DNA from: Azospirillum oryzae
Lineage (GTDB): Bacteria; Pseudomonadota; Alphaproteobacteria; Azospirillales; Azospirillaceae
Assembly: GCF_900177515.1 (NCBI RefSeq)
Contig: NZ_FXAK01000007.1
Location: forward strand, 728,501-792,500
Direction of reading: 5' to 3'
DNA length: 64,000 nucleotides
In this document: positions 49,064 through 63,314 of the stretch, piece after piece
Position numbering within the stretch: the stretch's first letter is position 1
How the letters are laid out: the number at the start of each line of letters is the position of its first letter
The notes under the pieces: model-generated
The model's input: only the letters and a program-made list of their open reading frames with translations
Database searches by the model: none
What the model was told of the DNA's origin: nothing
Translations under genes and position numbers: made by a program

Positions 49064-49451
49064 ATCGGATCCCTGGGGAAGGCGTCACCATCGGGCGGCG
49101 TGGTCCTGCCACCCGACGCACATAAGGTCTCGATCCCGGCCCTCCTCAGAGAGCCGGGCCGGTAATTCGCGCGCGATGCGCCGGTGCGCGCATCATCATC
49201 GGGATCCGTGCAGAGACGTCCATGGCGCCGGATATTAGCGGCGCGGGCCGTACGGTCAAGGACCGCTCACATGCGCCCTGTGCGACTGCGAAATGTGCAA
49301 CTGCGAAACCACGTCGCCGGTCAAGCGCCGCGCGGTGGTTCCGAAAATAGCGCTGGCAAGCGGGCGGCGGCAAACTTACGGTGTGGCCGCCGAGCTTGTC
49401 CGGGGCAGGGGGCCGCTCGCGGCAATCAGTGCGTGCGGGAGCGTCTTGGGC
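49064..49451. other. divergent intergenic region between ileS and glycan operon
   Basis: 388 bases. I see no gene and no strong repeat. Promoters for both operons must lie here, but hexamers are unclear. In-frame reading into the first glycosyltransferase from 49293 is rejected because the sequence before the ATG at 49452 lacks a protein-like pattern. Confidence 0.55.
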
Positions 49452-50429
49452 ATGATCGACCAGCGGACCAGCGATTTCCTTTCGGAATTTCTGGCGTCTT
49501 CCCATCGGGACCCGGCGCGGCTCGACAGCTTTCTGTTGCATGGGCCCGGCCGCGGCGCTCGCGCGGCGAAGCCGCGGCTGAAGATCGCCTTCTTCGATTT
49601 CTGGCCGGAGTTCGATCCGGCTGCCAACTTCTTCGTGGATATCCTGTCCGCCCGCTTCGACGTTTCGGTCGTCGACAACGACAGCGATCTCGCCATCGTG
49701 TCGGTGTTCGGCACCCGCCACCGCGAGGCGCGGACCGCCCGGTCGATGTTCTTCACCGGCGAGAATGTGCGGCCGCCGCTCGACGGCGTCGACATGTCGG
49801 TGTCGTTCGACCGCATCGACGATCCCCGCCATTACCGCCTGCCGCTCTACGTCATGCATGCCTGGGACCACAGGCGGGAGGGGGCGACGCCGCATTTCTG
49901 CCAGTCCGTCCTGCCGCCGGTGCCGCCGACGCGGGAGGAGGCCGCGAAGCGGAAATTCTGCGCCTTCCTCTACAAGAATCCCAACTGCGCCCGACGCAAC
50001 GATTTCTTTCAGATGCTCTGCGCCCGACGCCATGTGGAGTCGGTCGGCTGGCTGCTGAACAACACCGGCAGCGTGGTCAAGATGGGCTGGCTGCCGAAGA
50101 TCCGGGTCTTTTCCCGCTATCGCTTCGCCTTCGCCTTCGAGAATGCGAGCCATCCCGGCTATCTGACGGAGAAGATCCTCGACGCCTTCCAGGCCGGCGC
50201 CGTGCCGCTCTACTGGGGCGATCCGGGGGTCCTGCGCGATGTCGCGGCCGGCAGCTTCATCGACGTGTCGCGCTATGCGTCCGACGAGGAGGCCTGCGAT
50301 GCCATCCTGGCCGCCGACGACGACTATGACACCTATCGCCGCTATCGCAGCACGCCGCCGTTCCTGGGCGCGGAGGACTTCTATTTCGACGCCTTCCGTC
50401 TGGCCGAATGGATCGAAAGCCGGCTTTGA
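49452..50429 (+). CDS. GT10-like (fucosyltransferase fold) glycosyltransferase
   Basis: 325-residue cytoplasmic glycosyltransferase. The conserved GT10 acceptor/donor block is clear: YRFAFAFENASHPGYLTEKI followed by LDAFQAGAVPLYWGDP. The N-terminal part (LKIAFFDFWPEFDPAANFFV) is the GT10-like first domain. Alpha-1,3/4-fucosyltransferases are the best known members, but donor and acceptor cannot be read here. It is the first of five closely spaced genes. ATG 49452 is used. Confidence 0.85.
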   Translation: MIDQRTSDFLSEFLASSHRDPARLDSFLLHGPGRGARAAKPRLKIAFFDFWPEFDPAANFFVDILSARFDVSVVDNDSDLAIVSVFGTRHREARTARSMFFTGENVRPPLDGVDMSVSFDRIDDPRHYRLPLYVMHAWDHRREGATPHFCQSVLPPVPPTREEAAKRKFCAFLYKNPNCARRNDFFQMLCARRHVESVGWLLNNTGSVVKMGWLPKIRVFSRYRFAFAFENASHPGYLTEKILDAFQAGAVPLYWGDPGVLRDVAAGSFIDVSRYASDEEACDAILAADDDYDTYRRYRSTPPFLGAEDFYFDAFRLAEWIESRL

Positions 50430-50447
50430 GCGGCGGGAGGACGTGCG

Positions 50448-51170
50448 ATGAAGCGGGTGCTGCTGAACTATGCCGACGGGGCCTTCACCACGGCGCAGAA
50501 ATACAATGCGCAGACCGGCCTTGCCGTGGGCGGCTTCGACGGCGTGGCCATGATGGGCCGGCAGCACATCGACGCCACCTTCGCCGCACGGAACCGGCAT
50601 ATCCTGGAGCAGCCGCGCGGGGCCGGTTATTGGCTGTGGAAGCCCTATTTCATCGATCTCGTGCTGCGTGAGCACCTGCAGGACGGCGACATGCTGTTCT
50701 ACAGCGACAGCGGCGCCCATTTCGTCCACAACGTCGATCCGGTGATCGAACTCTGCCGCCGGCGGCGCGACCTGCCGGTTCTGCTGTTCACGCTGGAGGA
50801 CGAGCACAGCAACCGTGTCTGGACGAAGCGCGACTGTTTCCATTTCATGGGGCTTGACCGGCCGCCCTTCATCGACGCGCCGCAGATCCTCGCCAGCTTC
50901 ATCGTCTGCGAGCGTGGGCCGGAAAGCCGGGACTTCATTTCCCGATGGCTGCGCTATGCCCAGGATGCCCGGCTGATCACCGACGCCCCCAACGAATGCG
51001 GCCTGCCGAACTATCCGGAGTTTCGCGACCATCGCCACGACCAGAGCATCCTCAGCCTGCTCGGCCGCCGCCACGGCGTGACCACCATTCCCGACATCTC
51101 GAACTGGGGTGATGCCAGACGTCCGGCCGGGATTCCCCGCATCCTGGAACACACGCGCTGGCGCAGCTGA
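50448..51170 (+). CDS. putative glycosyltransferase, family unassigned
   Basis: 240-residue soluble protein, 18 bases after the previous gene. Pattern GYWLWKPYFIDLVLREHLQD then GDMLFYSDSGAHF recalls small GT-A-like transferases that carry a D-x-D/D-x-G metal motif, here YSDSG. The end HDQSILSLLGRRHGVTTIPD is also typical of that group. No family is named with certainty. Its position inside the cluster supports a glycan role. Confidence 0.6.
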   Translation: MKRVLLNYADGAFTTAQKYNAQTGLAVGGFDGVAMMGRQHIDATFAARNRHILEQPRGAGYWLWKPYFIDLVLREHLQDGDMLFYSDSGAHFVHNVDPVIELCRRRRDLPVLLFTLEDEHSNRVWTKRDCFHFMGLDRPPFIDAPQILASFIVCERGPESRDFISRWLRYAQDARLITDAPNECGLPNYPEFRDHRHDQSILSLLGRRHGVTTIPDISNWGDARRPAGIPRILEHTRWRS

Positions 51171-51178
51171 GGTCGGCT

Positions 51179-53821
51179 ATGGCGGACAAAGGCCAATTGA
51201 CCAGCTTCACACGGGGAATGGCGGCGGAAAGGGCCGGCAAAGCGGAGGAGGCGAGGGCGCGATACCTCGAAGCCCTGCAGGCCGAGCCGCAGAATCCGAA
51301 GGCCCTGCACCGGCTTGGCGTCGTCGAGTTGCGGCTGGGCCGCCCGCGCGAGGCGGTGATCCTGTTCCAGAAGTCGCTGGCCATCGCCAAGGACCTGGAC
51401 GTCTATCTCGATTTCGGGGCGGCGATGGCCGGCATGGCCCGTTGGGATGCGGCGGCGACGGTCTATGCGGCGGCGCTGCGGGCCGCGCCCGATTCGGTCG
51501 ATGCCCATTATGGCTTAGCGCTGGCCCTGCACAGCCAGGGACGGCCGCAGGACGCGGAACCTCATTACCGCAAGGTACTGGCGACCCATTCCCATCTGGG
51601 GGAGGTCCACAACAATCTCGGCGTCGCCCTGCAGGACCTCGGACGCTTTGCCGAGGCGGTGGCCGCGCATCGGGAGGCGGCGCGGCTGTCTCCCGCCGAC
51701 GCCTCGGCACTGTCCAGGCTGGGCGTGGCGCTCCATCACCTTGGCCGGAATGCGGAGGCGGAAGCGGCCTTCCGCAAGGCCATCGGCTTGGCGCCGCTCG
51801 ACGTCGGCATCCGGCACGACCTGACCTGCCTGCTCCATGCCGCCGGCCGCCCGGCCGACGCGGTCGCCGCCGGCCGTCCGGCGGTGGCGCTCGACCCGGC
51901 GAACGCGCGGAACTGGCTGGCTCTGGGCAATGCGGCGCATGCAATGCGCCTCCGTGAGGACGCCTGGCGTGCCGCCGCCGCCGCGGTCCGGCTGGAGCCG
52001 TCCAATCCGGCGGCGCACAACAATCTCGCCAACGCCCTGCGGGAACTCGGCCGCCTGCGCGAGGCCGTCGCCGGCTATCGCGCGGCCTTGGACCTGCAGC
52101 CCGATTTCCCGACGGCGGAGATCAATCTGGCTCAGCTCCTGTCGTTCCTGCGCGAGTCCAACGGCGCACTGGCGATCCTGAGAAGCCTGCTCGTCCGGCA
52201 GCCGCTGAACGCCGAGGCTTGGCGGCGGCTGGCCGGCGTGCTGGCGGAGGCCTTCCGCCCCGATCTTGCGGTCGCCGCCCTGCGCAATGCCGTCGCCCTG
52301 GCTCCCGACGATGCGGATGCCTGCGCCGATCTGGCGATGGCCGCCGCGATGAGCGGCTGGAGCGCGGTATCGGCGGTGGCCTGCCGGAGGGTGCTGCGGC
52401 TGGTTCCCGGCCATGGCGCGGCGCTTGGCCAACTGGTTCACCAGCAGAGGCTGCTCTGCGACTGGCGGGACCTGGACGATCTGGAGTCGCTGCTCCTCCG
52501 CCGGGTGCGGGAGGGGGCGGAGGGCATATCCCCGTTCGACGTCCTGTCCTGCGCCTCGACCCTTGCCAACCAGCAATCGGCCGCGACCCGCTGGGCGGCG
52601 GCGAAGGCCCGCGGCGCGGTTCCTCTCTCCCGGCCTCCCGCTCTTCCACGCGATGGCCGTCTGCGGATCGGCTATCTGTCGTCGGATTTCCGGGAACATG
52701 CGATGGGCCACCTGATGGTGGATGCCCTGGAAACGCATGACCGGTCCCGCTTCGCCGTCACCGCCTATTCGACCGGCGCCGACGACGGCAGCCCGCTGCG
52801 CCGCCGGTTCGAGCAGGGGCTCGAACGGTTCGTCGACCTGCACCGCCATGGCGATGCCGACGCGGCGCAGGTCATCGCGGCCGATGGTATCGACATTCTG
52901 GTCGATCTGACCGGCTTCACCACCTTCTCGCGGACGTCGATCCTGGCTGCCCGCCCGGCTCCGCTGCAGGTCAACTGGTTGGGTTATCCGGGCACGCTGG
53001 GGGCCGGCTATGTCGATTACATCCTGGCCGACCCCGAGGTGATCGCGGAGGGCGAGGAGGCGTTCTTCACCGAGCGGGTGGTGCGGCTGCCGGATTGCTA
53101 CCAGCCCAACGACCGCCGCCGTGCCATCGCCGCCGACACCCCGTCGCGCGCGGATTGCGGACTGCCGGCCGACGGATTCGTCTTCTGCTGCTTCAACAGC
53201 GCCTACAAGCTGACGCCCGCCCTGTTCGACGGCTGGGCGCGCATCCTGGCGGCGGTGCCGGGCAGCGTCCTGTGGCTCTATGCCGGAAATCCGCAGGTGG
53301 CGGCCAACCTGCGCCGCGAGGGCGAGGCGCGCGGCCTCGATCCCGGCCGTCTCGTCTTCGCCGGCCCGATTCCCCATGCCGAGCATCTGGCGCGTCACCG
53401 GCTGGCGGACCTGTTTCTCGACACGCTTCCCTACAACGCGCACACCACCGCCAGCGACGCGCTGTGGGCGGGATTGCCGGTGCTGACGCGGCGCGGCACG
53501 ACCTTTGCCGGGCGCGTGGCGGCCAGCCTGCTGCGGGCCGCCGGACTGCCGGAGCTGATCGTCGACGGGCAGGAGGCCTATGAGGCGGCGGCGGTGGACC
53601 TTGCGTGTTCACCACAACGGCTCCGCGGCCTGCGGGAGCGGCTGATCCGCGATCGGCAGACCTGCCCGCTGTTCGATACGCCCCGATTCACCCGGCATCT
53701 CGAGGCGGCCTATCGGGCGATGTGGGACATTCATCTTGCGGGCGGGCCTCCGCGCGCAATCGCCATCGCGGCCGAGGGCGGCAGCGGTTTGCCATCCGCT
53801 GCGCAGGAAGGGAAGGACTGA
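51179..53821 (+). CDS. TPR protein with O-GlcNAc transferase (SPINDLY-type, GT41) domain
   Basis: 880 residues. The first 410 or so hold about ten tetratricopeptide repeats (for example AEEARARYLEALQAEPQNPK, HNNLGVALQDLGRFAEAVAA). The C-terminal half is a GT41/SPINDLY catalytic domain: RIGYLSSDFREHAMGHLMVD, INILV-like DILVDLTGFTTFSRTSI, NWLGYPGTLGAGYVDYIL and DLFLDTLPYNAHTTASDALW. Bacterial members glycosylate Ser/Thr of intracellular or flagellar proteins. It is soluble, so its acceptor should be cytoplasmic before export. The next gene starts one base after the stop. Confidence 0.93.
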   Translation: MADKGQLTSFTRGMAAERAGKAEEARARYLEALQAEPQNPKALHRLGVVELRLGRPREAVILFQKSLAIAKDLDVYLDFGAAMAGMARWDAAATVYAAALRAAPDSVDAHYGLALALHSQGRPQDAEPHYRKVLATHSHLGEVHNNLGVALQDLGRFAEAVAAHREAARLSPADASALSRLGVALHHLGRNAEAEAAFRKAIGLAPLDVGIRHDLTCLLHAAGRPADAVAAGRPAVALDPANARNWLALGNAAHAMRLREDAWRAAAAAVRLEPSNPAAHNNLANALRELGRLREAVAGYRAALDLQPDFPTAEINLAQLLSFLRESNGALAILRSLLVRQPLNAEAWRRLAGVLAEAFRPDLAVAALRNAVALAPDDADACADLAMAAAMSGWSAVSAVACRRVLRLVPGHGAALGQLVHQQRLLCDWRDLDDLESLLLRRVREGAEGISPFDVLSCASTLANQQSAATRWAAAKARGAVPLSRPPALPRDGRLRIGYLSSDFREHAMGHLMVDALETHDRSRFAVTAYSTGADDGSPLRRRFEQGLERFVDLHRHGDADAAQVIAADGIDILVDLTGFTTFSRTSILAARPAPLQVNWLGYPGTLGAGYVDYILADPEVIAEGEEAFFTERVVRLPDCYQPNDRRRAIAADTPSRADCGLPADGFVFCCFNSAYKLTPALFDGWARILAAVPGSVLWLYAGNPQVAANLRREGEARGLDPGRLVFAGPIPHAEHLARHRLADLFLDTLPYNAHTTASDALWAGLPVLTRRGTTFAGRVAASLLRAAGLPELIVDGQEAYEAAAVDLACSPQRLRGLRERLIRDRQTCPLFDTPRFTRHLEAAYRAMWDIHLAGGPPRAIAIAAEGGSGLPSAAQEGKD

Positions 53822-53822
53822 C

Positions 53823-54617
53823 ATGACGACCGGCGACAGCGCGAACCCGCGCCTCCACATCGTCGTCCCCTATCGGGATCGGGAGGACCATCTGCGGCAA
53901 TTCGTTCCGTGGGTGAGCGCCTATTTCGACCGGCTCGTGCCGAGGATCGACTATCGCGTCACCATCGTGGAGCAGGAGGACGGCCTTCCCTTCAACCGGG
54001 GGGCGCTGAAGAATGCCGGTTTCCTGCTGGGCGAAGGGCAGAGCGACTATACCTGTCTGCACGACGTCGATTACCTGCCGGTCGATGCCGACTATTCCTG
54101 GGCCGATTGCCCCACCCCCATCCTCTGGTTTGGGGCGGAGCAGCGGCCGGTCGCGCCTGGGCGGTCGGACAGGACGGTAACCACCAACCTGGAAAGCACG
54201 ATGGGCGGCGCGCTGCTGATGCCGAACGGCGTCATGCGGCAGGTCGATGGCTATTCCAACCTGTTCTGGGGCTGGGGGTACGAGGATTTCGACTTCTCGC
54301 TGCGCATCCGGGCGCGCCGCATCCCCACCGGCCGGCGCAAGGGCCGCTTCCAGCCGCTCGACCACGACAATGACGGTTTCACGCCGGATGCGGCGCCGTC
54401 GCCGATCTCCGTCGTCAACCGTCGCGTCTTTCAGGAGCTTTGGTCCACCGGCAAGATCCCGGCCGGCGACGGGCTGTCGACGCTTTCCTTTGACATACTG
54501 GACCGCCGCCCCTGCGACGGTGCCGTCGCCCAGGCGCGAGCGCGGTGGGAAATCGTCCGCGTGCGCTTCAACCACCGTCCCCGGCCGGAGCAGGCGGCGG
54601 CCGACACTGCGCAGTGA
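53823..54617 (+). CDS. GT7-like glycosyltransferase (beta-1,4-galactosyltransferase fold)
   Basis: 264 residues. It shows the GT7 patterns: VPYRDREDHL near the start, FNRGALKNAGF, DVD metal motif in HDVDYLPVD, and the WGWGYEDFDFSLRI signature. Eukaryotic GT7 enzymes transfer galactose or GalNAc; bacterial members are found in surface glycan loci. ATG 53823 follows GGAAGGAC. The stop is 135 bases before the methyltransferase. Confidence 0.9.
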   Translation: MTTGDSANPRLHIVVPYRDREDHLRQFVPWVSAYFDRLVPRIDYRVTIVEQEDGLPFNRGALKNAGFLLGEGQSDYTCLHDVDYLPVDADYSWADCPTPILWFGAEQRPVAPGRSDRTVTTNLESTMGGALLMPNGVMRQVDGYSNLFWGWGYEDFDFSLRIRARRIPTGRRKGRFQPLDHDNDGFTPDAAPSPISVVNRRVFQELWSTGKIPAGDGLSTLSFDILDRRPCDGAVAQARARWEIVRVRFNHRPRPEQAAADTAQ

Positions 54618-54752
54618 ATCTTCGGCGGGAGATGGGACGACCGCATGACAGGCGGCTTGTCATTTTCGCCGACAGCGGACTTTATGATCGCCCCCGCGTC
54701 CGGCCGACCGTGGTTTCGGCAACAGGACCGGTGAACTGGAGATGAGACGGGT

Positions 54753-55862
54753 ATGAGTGCTGCGCCGGTGACCGCTCTGCTGGAGAATTTCCTGAACGGG
54801 CGGGTCACGCTGCTCGCCGCCGGGCAGGGGGCGGAGGCGTGGTCCGACGGACTGAGATCGGACGACCGGATCGTCATCGCCGCGGACGCACCCGGTCCGC
54901 TGGACGACTGGTGCGCCGGCCTGGGCCTGCGGCATGTCGACTGGCTGGTGCTGCATCGCGTCGGCGGTGTGCTGCCGGTACTGGAAAGCGCCGGAGAGAT
55001 GCTGCGGCTCCGCCGCATCGATTTCCTTCAGTTCGACGGAGCCGGGAACGGTGATGGGGCGTCCGGCGACTTGCCGGCGCTCTATGCCCTGTTGCAGCGC
55101 CATCGCTATTCGATGTTCCGTTTCGACGGCCGGACCTTGCAGCATTGCCTGCAACCGCCTGCGGATGACGGGGCCTGTACCCATCTGGCGGTGGCGCCAC
55201 GCCATGTGCAGCGGCTATTCACCCGTGACCGTACGATGTTCCGCTATTCCGACCTGTTTCCGCGCTATGGCATCATCCCGCGCGGAATCGTCCATGTCGG
55301 CGCGCACGAGGGCGAGGAGTATCCCCAGTATGTCGAAGCCGGCTGCCGCCGGGTCCTGTTCGTCGAGGCCGATCCGGACACCTATGGCCGCCTGGCCCCC
55401 CGCTTCGTCGGCAATCCGGATGTCGTCTGCGTCAATCGCGCGGTGTCCGACCGGGTCGGACGGCTCCCCTTTTCCCGGATGAGCGGCAGCCAGTCCAGTT
55501 CTCTGCTGCCGCCGAAGGAGCATTTGGACGTCTATCCCGGCATCACCCTGACCGGAACCATCGAGGTCGACGCGGCCCCGCTTCCCCACATCCTGGCGGA
55601 ATTCGGAATCGATGCCGACGGCTACAATGTGCTGGCCATCGACACGCAGGGCGCGGAACGCATGATCCTGGCCGGCTGCGGCCCGCTGCTGGGACGTTTC
55701 GACGCCGTGGCGGTGGAGGTGAACTACGCCGAACTTTACCAGGGCTGCGGCCGGATCGCCGACATCGACGATCTGCTGTTCCCCCACGGCTTCGAGCGGG
55801 TCGAGGAAATCAGTCCATTCCACCACAGCTGGGGCGACGCCTTCTACGTCCGCCGCGGCTGA
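54753..55862 (+). CDS. FkbM-family methyltransferase with degenerate N-terminal half
   Basis: 369 residues. Residues about 175-369 form a complete FkbM SAM-dependent methyltransferase (GIVHVGAHEGEEYPQYVEAG, VLFVEADPDTYG, LAIDTQGAERMILAG). Residues 1-160 resemble the later half of another FkbM-like domain (RRIDFLQFDGAGNGDGA, LLQRHRYSMFRFDG) without the SAM loop, suggesting an internal duplication with decay. Methylation of the glycan would cap it. The gene ends the cluster. Confidence 0.85.
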   Translation: MSAAPVTALLENFLNGRVTLLAAGQGAEAWSDGLRSDDRIVIAADAPGPLDDWCAGLGLRHVDWLVLHRVGGVLPVLESAGEMLRLRRIDFLQFDGAGNGDGASGDLPALYALLQRHRYSMFRFDGRTLQHCLQPPADDGACTHLAVAPRHVQRLFTRDRTMFRYSDLFPRYGIIPRGIVHVGAHEGEEYPQYVEAGCRRVLFVEADPDTYGRLAPRFVGNPDVVCVNRAVSDRVGRLPFSRMSGSQSSSLLPPKEHLDVYPGITLTGTIEVDAAPLPHILAEFGIDADGYNVLAIDTQGAERMILAGCGPLLGRFDAVAVEVNYAELYQGCGRIADIDDLLFPHGFERVEEISPFHHSWGDAFYVRRG

Positions 55863-55906
55863 GGGAGCGGCGTCAAGGGGGCGGCACGCACCGCCCCCCG
55901 CCGGCA

Positions 55907-61085: not shown

Positions 61086-62948
61086 TCAGAACAGGCGCAG
61101 GATCGACTGCTGCGACTGGTTGGCGAGCGAGAGGGCGATGGTGCCCAGCTGCTGGCGGGTCTGCAGCATCAGCAGGCTGGCGCCTTCCTCGTTCTGGTCG
61201 GCCAGCGTCAGCTTGCTGGCGCCTTCCGTCAGCACGTCGCTGAACTCCTTGGTGAAGCTCTCGCGGGTCGTGATGATGTTCAGGTTGGTCGACAGGTTCT
61301 GCGACGCGGAGCGGATCGTCGCCTTGGCATGATCCAGGCCGGCGACCGCCTTGTCGATGTCGGCGCGGTCCATCCAGCCGTTCTGCGCCGCATCCATCTG
61401 CAGGCCCTGGCCGCTGGTCGACAGGTTGACCGCGTTCACCGTGATCGAGTTGGTGTTGCGCTCGTTGAGCTGGACGGTGATGTCGTTCGACGTGTTGGCG
61501 TCGGAGATCTGCTTGGTGACGATGTTGGCCGAGCAGTTCGCCGAGGCGGCCTGCTTGATGGTCTTGGCGTCGACGTTCAGGCGCACCGTGCCGCTGTCGA
61601 AGGTGAAGGACTGCTCGCCGCCGTCCAGCTTGCCGTCGCCGCGGCTGTTCATACCGTCGCGGGTGACCTGGGCGCCGTTGGAGTTGGTGACCTGGATTTG
61701 CAGGTCGACCTTCTTCTCGATGGTCGAGATGCCGTTGCCCTGGTTGTTCGCCGCTTCCAGCAGGCGGCGGTCGACCGTGAAGGACACGATCGTGCCCGAC
61801 GCGAAGCTCTCCGAGATCTTCTTGGTCAGCGCGTTGGTCGCGCTGGTCGTCACCGTCATCTCGCGAACCACGCCGGCCGTGGTGTTGCCGGTCAGGGTGA
61901 TGGTGCCGCTGGTGCCGATGGACGCGGTGGCGACATCCTTGCCGGCCAGACGACCGCCGCTGGCGATTGCGTTGCTGATCGAGGCCTGCAGCCGGGTCGC
62001 GACGTTGAGGGCGGCGTTCTGGCCGACGGAGACGTCGCCGCTGGTGGCGGTGTAGCTGAAGGACTGGCCTTCCACCGTGATCGAGAAGATGTCGCCTTCC
62101 TCGATGGTGCCGCTGACGTTCACCGTCGACACCTGCGGCACGCCCGAGGTCGCCGCCGTCTGCAGTTTGGCTTCGATCGTCTGGGTGTTGTCGAAGTAGG
62201 AGATCGTGCGGCTTTCGTCGCCGTCCTTGACGATGAAGTCGCGGGTGCGGCCGTTGGCGCCGCGCACCTCGATCTGGACGTCGGAGAAGCTGCCCAGCGT
62301 GCTCGACATCGTGCCCGACAGCTTCAGACCGACGAGGCCGTGCGCGTTCTCCGCGGTGGAGATGTCGGCGGTCTTGCCCTCGACCGAACCGTCACCCTTG
62401 ATGCGGATGGCGTAGGTGTCGGCGGAGATCACGTTGGTGACGCGGGCGTTGTCGACGCCGACGATGGTGTTGACGGCGGCACGGGACGCGCTGGTGCTGT
62501 CCATGCTCATGCCGTTGCCGTTGATCAGGTTCTTGCCCTGATAGCCGCTGTCGGCGGCCAGCTTGTCGATCTGGTCCTTCAGGGTATTGAACTGCGAGGC
62601 CAGCGACTTGCGGGTGGCGATGGAGGCGGCGTCGTTGCCCAGAGCCGCGTAGGCGGCGGTGGTCAGGCCCTTGGCCTGATCGACCAGCGAGTCGATGGAG
62701 GTCAGGCCCTTGTCGGCGGCCTGGATCGTGCTGATCGACTGACCCATCGCGTCCTTCAGCGACGTCAGGTCGCCGGCGCGCTGGTTCAGGCCCTTGGCGG
62801 CGAAGAAGGAGGTGGGACCATCGAGAGCCGAATTGATCTTGTTACCCGTCGACAGGATGTTCTGCTTCTTGTCGATCTGCGACTGCGTGCTCTGCAGCTG
62901 CAGCAGGTTGGTGCGCATCGAGGCGGTCAGGGTCACATTTCCGGCCAT
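61086..62948 (-). CDS. flagellin
   Basis: 620-residue structural subunit of the flagellar filament. Terminal D0/D1 regions are clear (LTASMRTNLLQLQSTQSQID at the N-terminus; NEEGASLLMLQTRQQLGTIA near the C-terminus, ending SLANQSQQSILRLF). The central 350 residues are a variable Ser/Thr-rich beta domain (TITLTGNTTAGVVR, SGTIVSFTVDRR), a typical glycosylation target. Unusually it has one Cys (ASANCSAN). Strong SD AGAAGGAGAC. Length and N-terminus are similar to Azospirillum lateral flagellin, but I cannot decide polar or lateral. Confidence 0.95.
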   Translation of the reverse strand: MAGNVTLTASMRTNLLQLQSTQSQIDKKQNILSTGNKINSALDGPTSFFAAKGLNQRAGDLTSLKDAMGQSISTIQAADKGLTSIDSLVDQAKGLTTAAYAALGNDAASIATRKSLASQFNTLKDQIDKLAADSGYQGKNLINGNGMSMDSTSASRAAVNTIVGVDNARVTNVISADTYAIRIKGDGSVEGKTADISTAENAHGLVGLKLSGTMSSTLGSFSDVQIEVRGANGRTRDFIVKDGDESRTISYFDNTQTIEAKLQTAATSGVPQVSTVNVSGTIEEGDIFSITVEGQSFSYTATSGDVSVGQNAALNVATRLQASISNAIASGGRLAGKDVATASIGTSGTITLTGNTTAGVVREMTVTTSATNALTKKISESFASGTIVSFTVDRRLLEAANNQGNGISTIEKKVDLQIQVTNSNGAQVTRDGMNSRGDGKLDGGEQSFTFDSGTVRLNVDAKTIKQAASANCSANIVTKQISDANTSNDITVQLNERNTNSITVNAVNLSTSGQGLQMDAAQNGWMDRADIDKAVAGLDHAKATIRSASQNLSTNLNIITTRESFTKEFSDVLTEGASKLTLADQNEEGASLLMLQTRQQLGTIALSLANQSQQSILRLF

Positions 62949-63314
62949 GGTCCTAGTCTCCTTCTGAGGCTGTCCCCGCCCCTGGTCATTTGACCGGCGA
63001 GGCAACGTGCGTTTTCCTGACACCACTCTTTCAAGCGCCGTGCCAACTCGTGTGGTGTGACATAAGTCACTGATTTCGCTATGAAATAAAAATAGGTCGG
63101 CAAAAAGGGCAGGGTTGGGCCCAAGGGTTCGGGCCCGGCGTCCGAAAAAGTTTCCCGGAATCTTTTGCCGCTGACGGACGGTTCTGCCGGGATGCCGGGC
63201 GGCAAGAATCTTCCCTCCGCCCCGCAGGCACGGCTATGGTCGGGCTCCAAACCACGTCCCAAACATCGAACGCATGGCCCCGACGCGGGCCAAAGCAGGG
63301 AAGGGAGAAGCATC
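62949..63314. other. divergent region between flagellin and RidA
   Basis: 366 bases with locally lower GC near 63055-63110. It holds the candidate sigma-54 site (separate entry) and the RidA SD AGGGAGAA. No gene with coding character was found. Confidence 0.6.
63031..63045 (-). promoter_or_regulatory. candidate sigma-54 promoter of flagellin
   Basis: Minus-strand TGGCACG-GCGC-TTGA: matches the -24/-12 consensus (TGGCACG-N4-TTGC) with one change at the -12 C. It would start transcription about 70 bases before the ATG. Flagellin promoters are often sigma-28, so this is a candidate only. Confidence 0.35.

Follow-up and report, generated by a model that had tools for sequence, protein, structure and literature searches.

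A conserved four-gene glycosyltransferase cassette in Azospirillum and a tentative pathway of cytoplasmic protein glycosylation

Do neighbouring genes for different families of glycosyltransferases in the plant-root bacterium Azospirillum oryzae form a single pathway and, if so, on what would that pathway build its glycan? The genes lie in a 64,000-nucleotide stretch (hereafter the window) of contig NZ_FXAK01000007.1, positions 728,501 to 792,500, in a 7.67-Mb genome. We find that four of them are a conserved unit, GT10–GTx–TPR-GT41–GT7, in which GTx denotes a family with no name of its own. At a probability of about 45%, our preferred reading is that the four genes form a single operon, whose soluble products would act in the cytoplasm and assemble a short oligosaccharide, containing fucose, straight onto the side chains of a protein. 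The genes are as follows (window coordinates, with the basis of each assignment in brackets).

49452-50429, + strand: GT10, alpha-1,3-fucosyltransferase-like, of the Helicobacter pylori FucT type, 325 aa (Pfam, residue match)
50448-51170, + strand: GTx, putative glycosyltransferase of a nameless GT-A family, 240 aa (family alignment, model, PDB fold matches)
51179-53821, + strand: TPR-GT41, putative soluble protein glycosyltransferase of the OGT type, 880 aa (Pfam, residue match)
53823-54617, + strand: GT7, beta-1,4-galactosyltransferase-like, 264 aa (Pfam, motifs; nearest solved relative B4GALT7)
54753-55862, + strand: FkbM-family methyltransferase, a facultative neighbour outside the conserved core (Pfam, locus comparison)

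Results

A conserved four-gene cassette

A first-pass annotation of the window had described a five-gene operon for glycan transfer that includes a soluble enzyme of the OGT type and perhaps makes a fucosylated/galactosylated product. The five co-directional open reading frames (ORFs) are indeed arranged as it described, with gaps of 18, 8, 1 and 135 nt, and its general picture is upheld by enzyme families, diagnostic residues and the presence of genes for GDP-fucose supply. The parts that fell away are methylation as a built-in step and the link to flagellin, both treated below. Its remark that GT10 and GT7 are uncommon in bacteria stands as far as we have sampled, since among 385 alphaproteobacterial genomes only 6 have a relative of GT7 and 23 a GT10. 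The cassette has the same GC content as the DNA around it (0.684), and most GT10 homologues share the ATG at which the window gene starts.

The conserved unit is the four-gene cassette. GT7 is present in 33 of 45 Azospirillum genomes and in none of 37 genomes from other genera of the same family. The order GT10–GTx–GT41–GT7 is kept in 19 of the 20 Azospirillum neighbourhoods compared, which represent several genomic contexts, the core genes either overlapping slightly or lying up to about 80 nt apart. Similarly, 28 of 30 shorter loci have GT41 immediately before GT7. No aligned cassette gene in the 20 loci contains an internal stop, and this includes the GT41 of locus L041, which has a slightly different C-terminus. 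(ORFs in two A. brasilense plasmid records, which are unannotated in this stretch, were called by our own script.) Pairwise dN/dS (the ratio of nonsynonymous to synonymous substitution rates) is below 0.45 for every gene and pair computed, pointing to purifying selection on the cassette genes. Together with the conserved gene order and the conserved catalytic residues described below, this argues for a real pathway.

As for the proteins, all four look soluble from their sequences. No long hydrophobic segment was detected in GT10, GTx, GT41 or GT7 in a KD19 scan, the maximum being at most 1.33 in each, as against 2.5-2.6 in two membrane-protein controls.

The fifth gene behaves differently. Although the FkbM protein is a clear family member (Pfam Methyltransf_21, 1.5e-12), its gene is full length in only 3 of 20 other wide loci (L032, L033 and L043), lacks the first 124 residues in L034, and is reduced to a 28-residue match in L041. 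In genome G035, FkbM lies between ileS and pyrE and the core is absent. Since the gene is present in few loci and is separable from the core, we rejected it as a core gene, and with it the five-gene operon; methylation, which had been proposed as part of the glycan, would at most be optional.

Three recognizable transferases and a probable supply of GDP-fucose

GT10 matches the Pfam domains FucT_N (6.9e-19) and Glyco_transf_10 (2.1e-15), both above cut-off, and its E104, R182, N231, Y237, E240 and K241 correspond to E95, R195, N240, Y246, E249 and K250 of H. pylori FucT. Domains and GDP-fucose/catalytic residues therefore point to an alpha-1,3-fucosyltransferase. GT41 matches Glyco_transf_41 (3.2e-85) and several TPR models, and is closest to human OGT, then to XcOGT (2jlb/2vsn, E about 1e-97) and the TPR protein 5djs (1e-66). 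Its D503, H507, K677, H736 and H755 correspond to D554, H558, K842, H901 and H920 of human OGT in the numbering mapped within our analysis, and D554, H558 and K842 are important in OGT (PMC7949088). The domain, the TPR array and the catalytic residues are those expected of an OGT-type enzyme. GT7, which matches Glyco_transf_7N (2.7e-15) and Glyco_transf_7C (5.1e-11), has all the motifs FNR, DVD, GG and WGWGxED and fits a beta-1,4-galactosyltransferase, its sequence not settling between Gal, GalNAc or another donor.

The fucose donor could be supplied widely in the genus. Gmd scores above cut-off in 44 of the 45 Azospirillum genomes, and the genome in which it falls below (G042) also lacks GT7. 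In the window genome (G000), an epimerase/reductase encoded near a Gmd gene reads as a GDP-L-fucose synthase. About ten GT41-domain matches occur in that genome, several of them on the glycan-rich contig C6, which also holds Gmd.

GTx, a predicted retaining-type GT-A enzyme shared with viruses

Searches of Pfam, NCBIfam, PHROG and PDB sequences returned nothing for GTx itself. Among 60 relatives, one has a weak match to Nucleotid_trans and one a weak match to Glyco_transf_8 (GT8), so that by sequence GTx would not be placed in any named retaining GT-A family. The family is nevertheless widespread, with at least 231 relatives in IMG/VR viral contigs and relatives in 16 of the 385 alphaproteobacterial genomes. 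It is characterized by the motifs RGAGYWLWKP, YSDSG and DHRHDQS; G58, G60, W62, W64, K65, Y85, D87, R196 and D198 are invariant in a 60-sequence alignment, and Q199 is kept in 58 of the 60.

Structure prediction gives this gene, previously listed as an unassigned transferase, a confident fold. The model built from the 60 sequences has a predicted local distance difference test (pLDDT) score of 96.2 and a predicted template modelling (pTM) score of 0.93; it replaced a poor model from ten close relatives (pLDDT 54.6), which gave no useful fold match. Its best PDB matches are XXYLT1, GTA/GTB and glycogenin (best E 4.9e-7, template modelling score, TM, about 0.4-0.6), while viral proteins reach a TM of up to 0.89. 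GTx is thus predicted to be a retaining-type GT-A enzyme.

A clue to its activity comes from protein A111/114R of the chlorovirus PBCV-1, which takes part in making the capsid N-glycan. Its domain 1, a galactosyltransferase by UDP-Gal hydrolysis, has a donor site with Y83, D85, D193 and Q194; its domain 3, in the same polypeptide, is a FucT of the H. pylori type (PMC7826918). Y85, D87, D198 and Q199 of GTx resemble these donor-site residues, a likeness by motif between sequences that were not aligned. From motif and fold, GTx activity is probably of the alpha-galactosyl type. The viral protein resembles the cassette in joining a GalT domain with a Tyr/Asp and Asp/Gln donor site to an H. pylori-type FucT, and in glycosylation that is independent of the endoplasmic reticulum and Golgi (PMC7826918). 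It differs in being a single polypeptide with a xylosyltransferase domain, in acting on an Asn-linked Glc core, and in having no GT41 or GT7.

GTx and GT10 are also neighbours in viral contigs. GT10 is found within about 5 kb of GTx in 18 of 52 dereplicated viral loci, which is a count and not a tested enrichment because there was no control set. All 18 GT10 genes are co-directional with GTx, and this strand agreement is the stronger part of the evidence. Some of the viral GTx loci L144-L223 also carry FkbM and GT10 beside GTx. Single-sequence queries of viral contigs with GT10, GT7 and FkbM returned nothing or little.

A proposed pathway

From these features we infer the donors, linkages, order of steps, acceptor and cytoplasmic site of a possible pathway. 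The TPR superhelix of GT41 would pick the acceptor protein, and GT41 would place the first sugar on Ser/Thr, most likely GlcNAc from UDP-GlcNAc. GT7 would attach Gal in the second step, GT10 would attach L-Fuc from GDP-Fuc, and GTx one more residue, which is most likely alpha-Gal and would most likely sit on the fucose or next to it. Where FkbM is present, a sugar may in addition be O-methylated. In its most specific form, the proposal is a Lewis- or Skp1-like GlcNAc/Gal/Fuc/alpha-Gal oligosaccharide on protein Ser/Thr, initiated by the OGT homologue and completed by a virus-shared GTx–GT10 module adding the outer sugars. With so much detail it is tentative, and somewhat unlikely to be right in every part.

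Several points weigh against a pathway of this kind. The operon encodes no acceptor protein, and the steps are predicted throughout. GT41 enzymes can transfer other sugars, such as Fuc (SPINDLY) and an Asn-linked hexose (NGT), and the sequence therefore does not determine which sugar comes first. GTx is only 9-17% identical to its listed PDB fold matches, its donor being called by motif and fold alone, and the frequency of GT10 near viral GTx is the uncontrolled count given above. Finally, the cassette is not always complete: GT41 is missing from one of the 20 neighbourhoods (L046, genome G024), and in G040 just a GTx remnant is left beside GT7.

Flagellin and the ileS–pyrE site

An obvious candidate acceptor lies nearby. 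The first-pass annotation had noted a flagellin gene about 5 kb from the operon, with a Ser/Thr-rich centre. The gene is there (61086-62951, - strand, 5.2 kb past the FkbM stop), but the enrichment of its centre is mild, Ser and Thr making up 23.6% of residues 161-520 compared with 22.1% of the whole protein. That the cassette glycosylates the polar flagellin specifically is the alternative that survives best, even though we consider it doubtful. In A. brasilense Sp7, the polar flagellin carries a glycan containing rhamnose, fucose, galactose and GlcNAc (PMC3958885, PMC8100600). Since Sp7 has the cassette and three of these sugars are Fuc, Gal and GlcNAc, flagellin is still a candidate acceptor. 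However, this glycan as published consists of a repeating unit whose sugars are those of the Sp7 O-antigen, which suggests the O-antigen machinery instead.

Genomic position, which had been offered as a hint to the acceptor, does not help to identify it. The cassette lies beside pyrE in 13 of the 20 genomes read, with flagellin inside the stretch in 11 of those 13, while in the other seven the cassette is away from pyrE and the roughly 20 kb read contain no flagellin. On plasmid p1 of Sp7, the cassette is flanked by an RNase G-like gene on one side and a ParA-like gene on the other (names read from translations). Moreover, pyrE and flagellin are linked whether or not the cassette is present. 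With no cassette between them and ileS, flagellin is within about 7 kb of pyrE in G013, G026 and G035 and roughly 15 kb from it in G036, G002 and G028. This linkage is backbone synteny, ileS–[variable]–pyrE–...–flagellin, and comparison of carriers with non-carriers led us to reject flagellin proximity as functional evidence.

The window cassette occupies the ileS–pyrE junction (49064-55906), an interval that is variable in Azospirillum (L124-L135): in some genomes it is empty, and in others it holds the cassette, only FkbM, an ORF resembling cytochrome c peroxidase, or other ORFs. The two genes are adjacent, about 0.2 kb apart, in G013, G036, G002, G015 and G028; in G012, G026, G029 and G044 the interval is taken up by other genes.

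Distribution and regulation likewise argue against a dedicated flagellin system. A relative of the window flagellin is found in 45 of 45 genomes (only weakly in G032), compared with 33 for GT7. A sigma-54-like site (TGGCACGGCGCTTGA, from 63045, - strand) precedes the window flagellin, whereas none was seen before the cassette in our scan, a weak negative. The same genome also has a second, separate flagellin locus (G000:C9:148001-188000; L136, L137), whose flagellin is 88% identical to that of the window. FlbT, NeuB and very long TPR proteins (1989 and 1185 aa) are encoded there as well, together with a short-chain dehydrogenase, an AMP-binding enzyme and a KAS III-like enzyme.

Surface polysaccharide as a possible but unlikely substrate

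We regard it as unlikely that the cassette modifies a lipid-linked glycan, or a lipopolysaccharide or exopolysaccharide, with TPR-GT41 serving as a scaffold or as a polysaccharide-type transferase. Genes of the GT7, GT10 and FkbM types are known in polysaccharide pathways too, and the window genome has glycan clusters with many TPR-glycosyltransferase proteins. Against this, in the contexts read, the genes next to the core were not seen to include a flippase, a polymerase, a ligase or a sugar-nucleotide gene, and none of the four proteins has the long hydrophobic segment sought above. GT41 itself keeps the OGT catalytic residues, and its best matches are protein glycosyltransferases.

GTx, GT10 and GT7 in another family

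Among the 385 alphaproteobacteria sampled, just two genomes combine GTx, GT10 and GT7, namely G000 and G318, the latter a member of another family, and each has about ten GT41 matches. GTx and GT10 stand next to each other on contig C4 of G318. The GT7 of that genome, 50% identical to that of the window, lies elsewhere (L235, G318:C32, 4367-7185), head to head with the gene of a TPR protein that has a weak GT9 match at its C-terminus. This gene would represent a different TPR-transferase partner for GT7. GTx–GT10 pairs with no GT41 or GT7 alongside, here and in viral loci, and the separate location of the G318 GT7 are what one would expect if a viral-type GTx–GT10 module and an unrelated GT41–GT7 pair were only loosely joined and made no one shared glycan, but this is improbable given that the four-gene order and tight spacing are kept across contexts in the genus and that G318 has the same set of functions.

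Discussion

The pathway that we favour, a soluble one building a short oligosaccharide directly on protein, has partial parallels elsewhere. XcOGT and other bacterial GT41 enzymes share the GT41 domain, although in the literature searched we know of no bacterial GT41 that shares a conserved operon with GT10, GT7 and GTx. The Skp1 glycan of Dictyostelium and Toxoplasma is composed of GlcNAc, Gal, Fuc and Gal. It is a pentasaccharide (PMC7949088). Its sugars are likewise added singly to a cytoplasmic protein, but by other enzyme families, on a hydroxyproline acceptor and in eukaryotes, making it an analogy and not a homology. Caulobacter FlmG is likewise a soluble TPR-containing glycosyltransferase of an alphaproteobacterium, acting in the cytoplasm. 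It differs in that it needs the pseudaminic acid synthase NeuB (PMC7591256), whereas the cassette combines GT41 with GT7 and GT10 and has no NeuB. In the loci compared, NeuB and flagellin do not form a conserved unit beside a cassette transferase, and it is the second flagellin locus, with its NeuB, flagellin and TPR genes, that is more FlmG-like.

Each enzyme class in the cassette is known. Their combination in one conserved soluble cassette was not found described in the literature searched, and neither was a comparable cassette in Azospirillum. To our knowledge, the targets of bacterial OGT homologues are largely open. Here, one such homologue is tied to three further sugar transferases in a conserved operon, in a genus with tractable strains, among them A. 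brasilense Sp7. As for GTx, a family that is absent from the family libraries searched and is common in environmental viral contigs now has a confident structural model and a likely glycosyltransferase activity.

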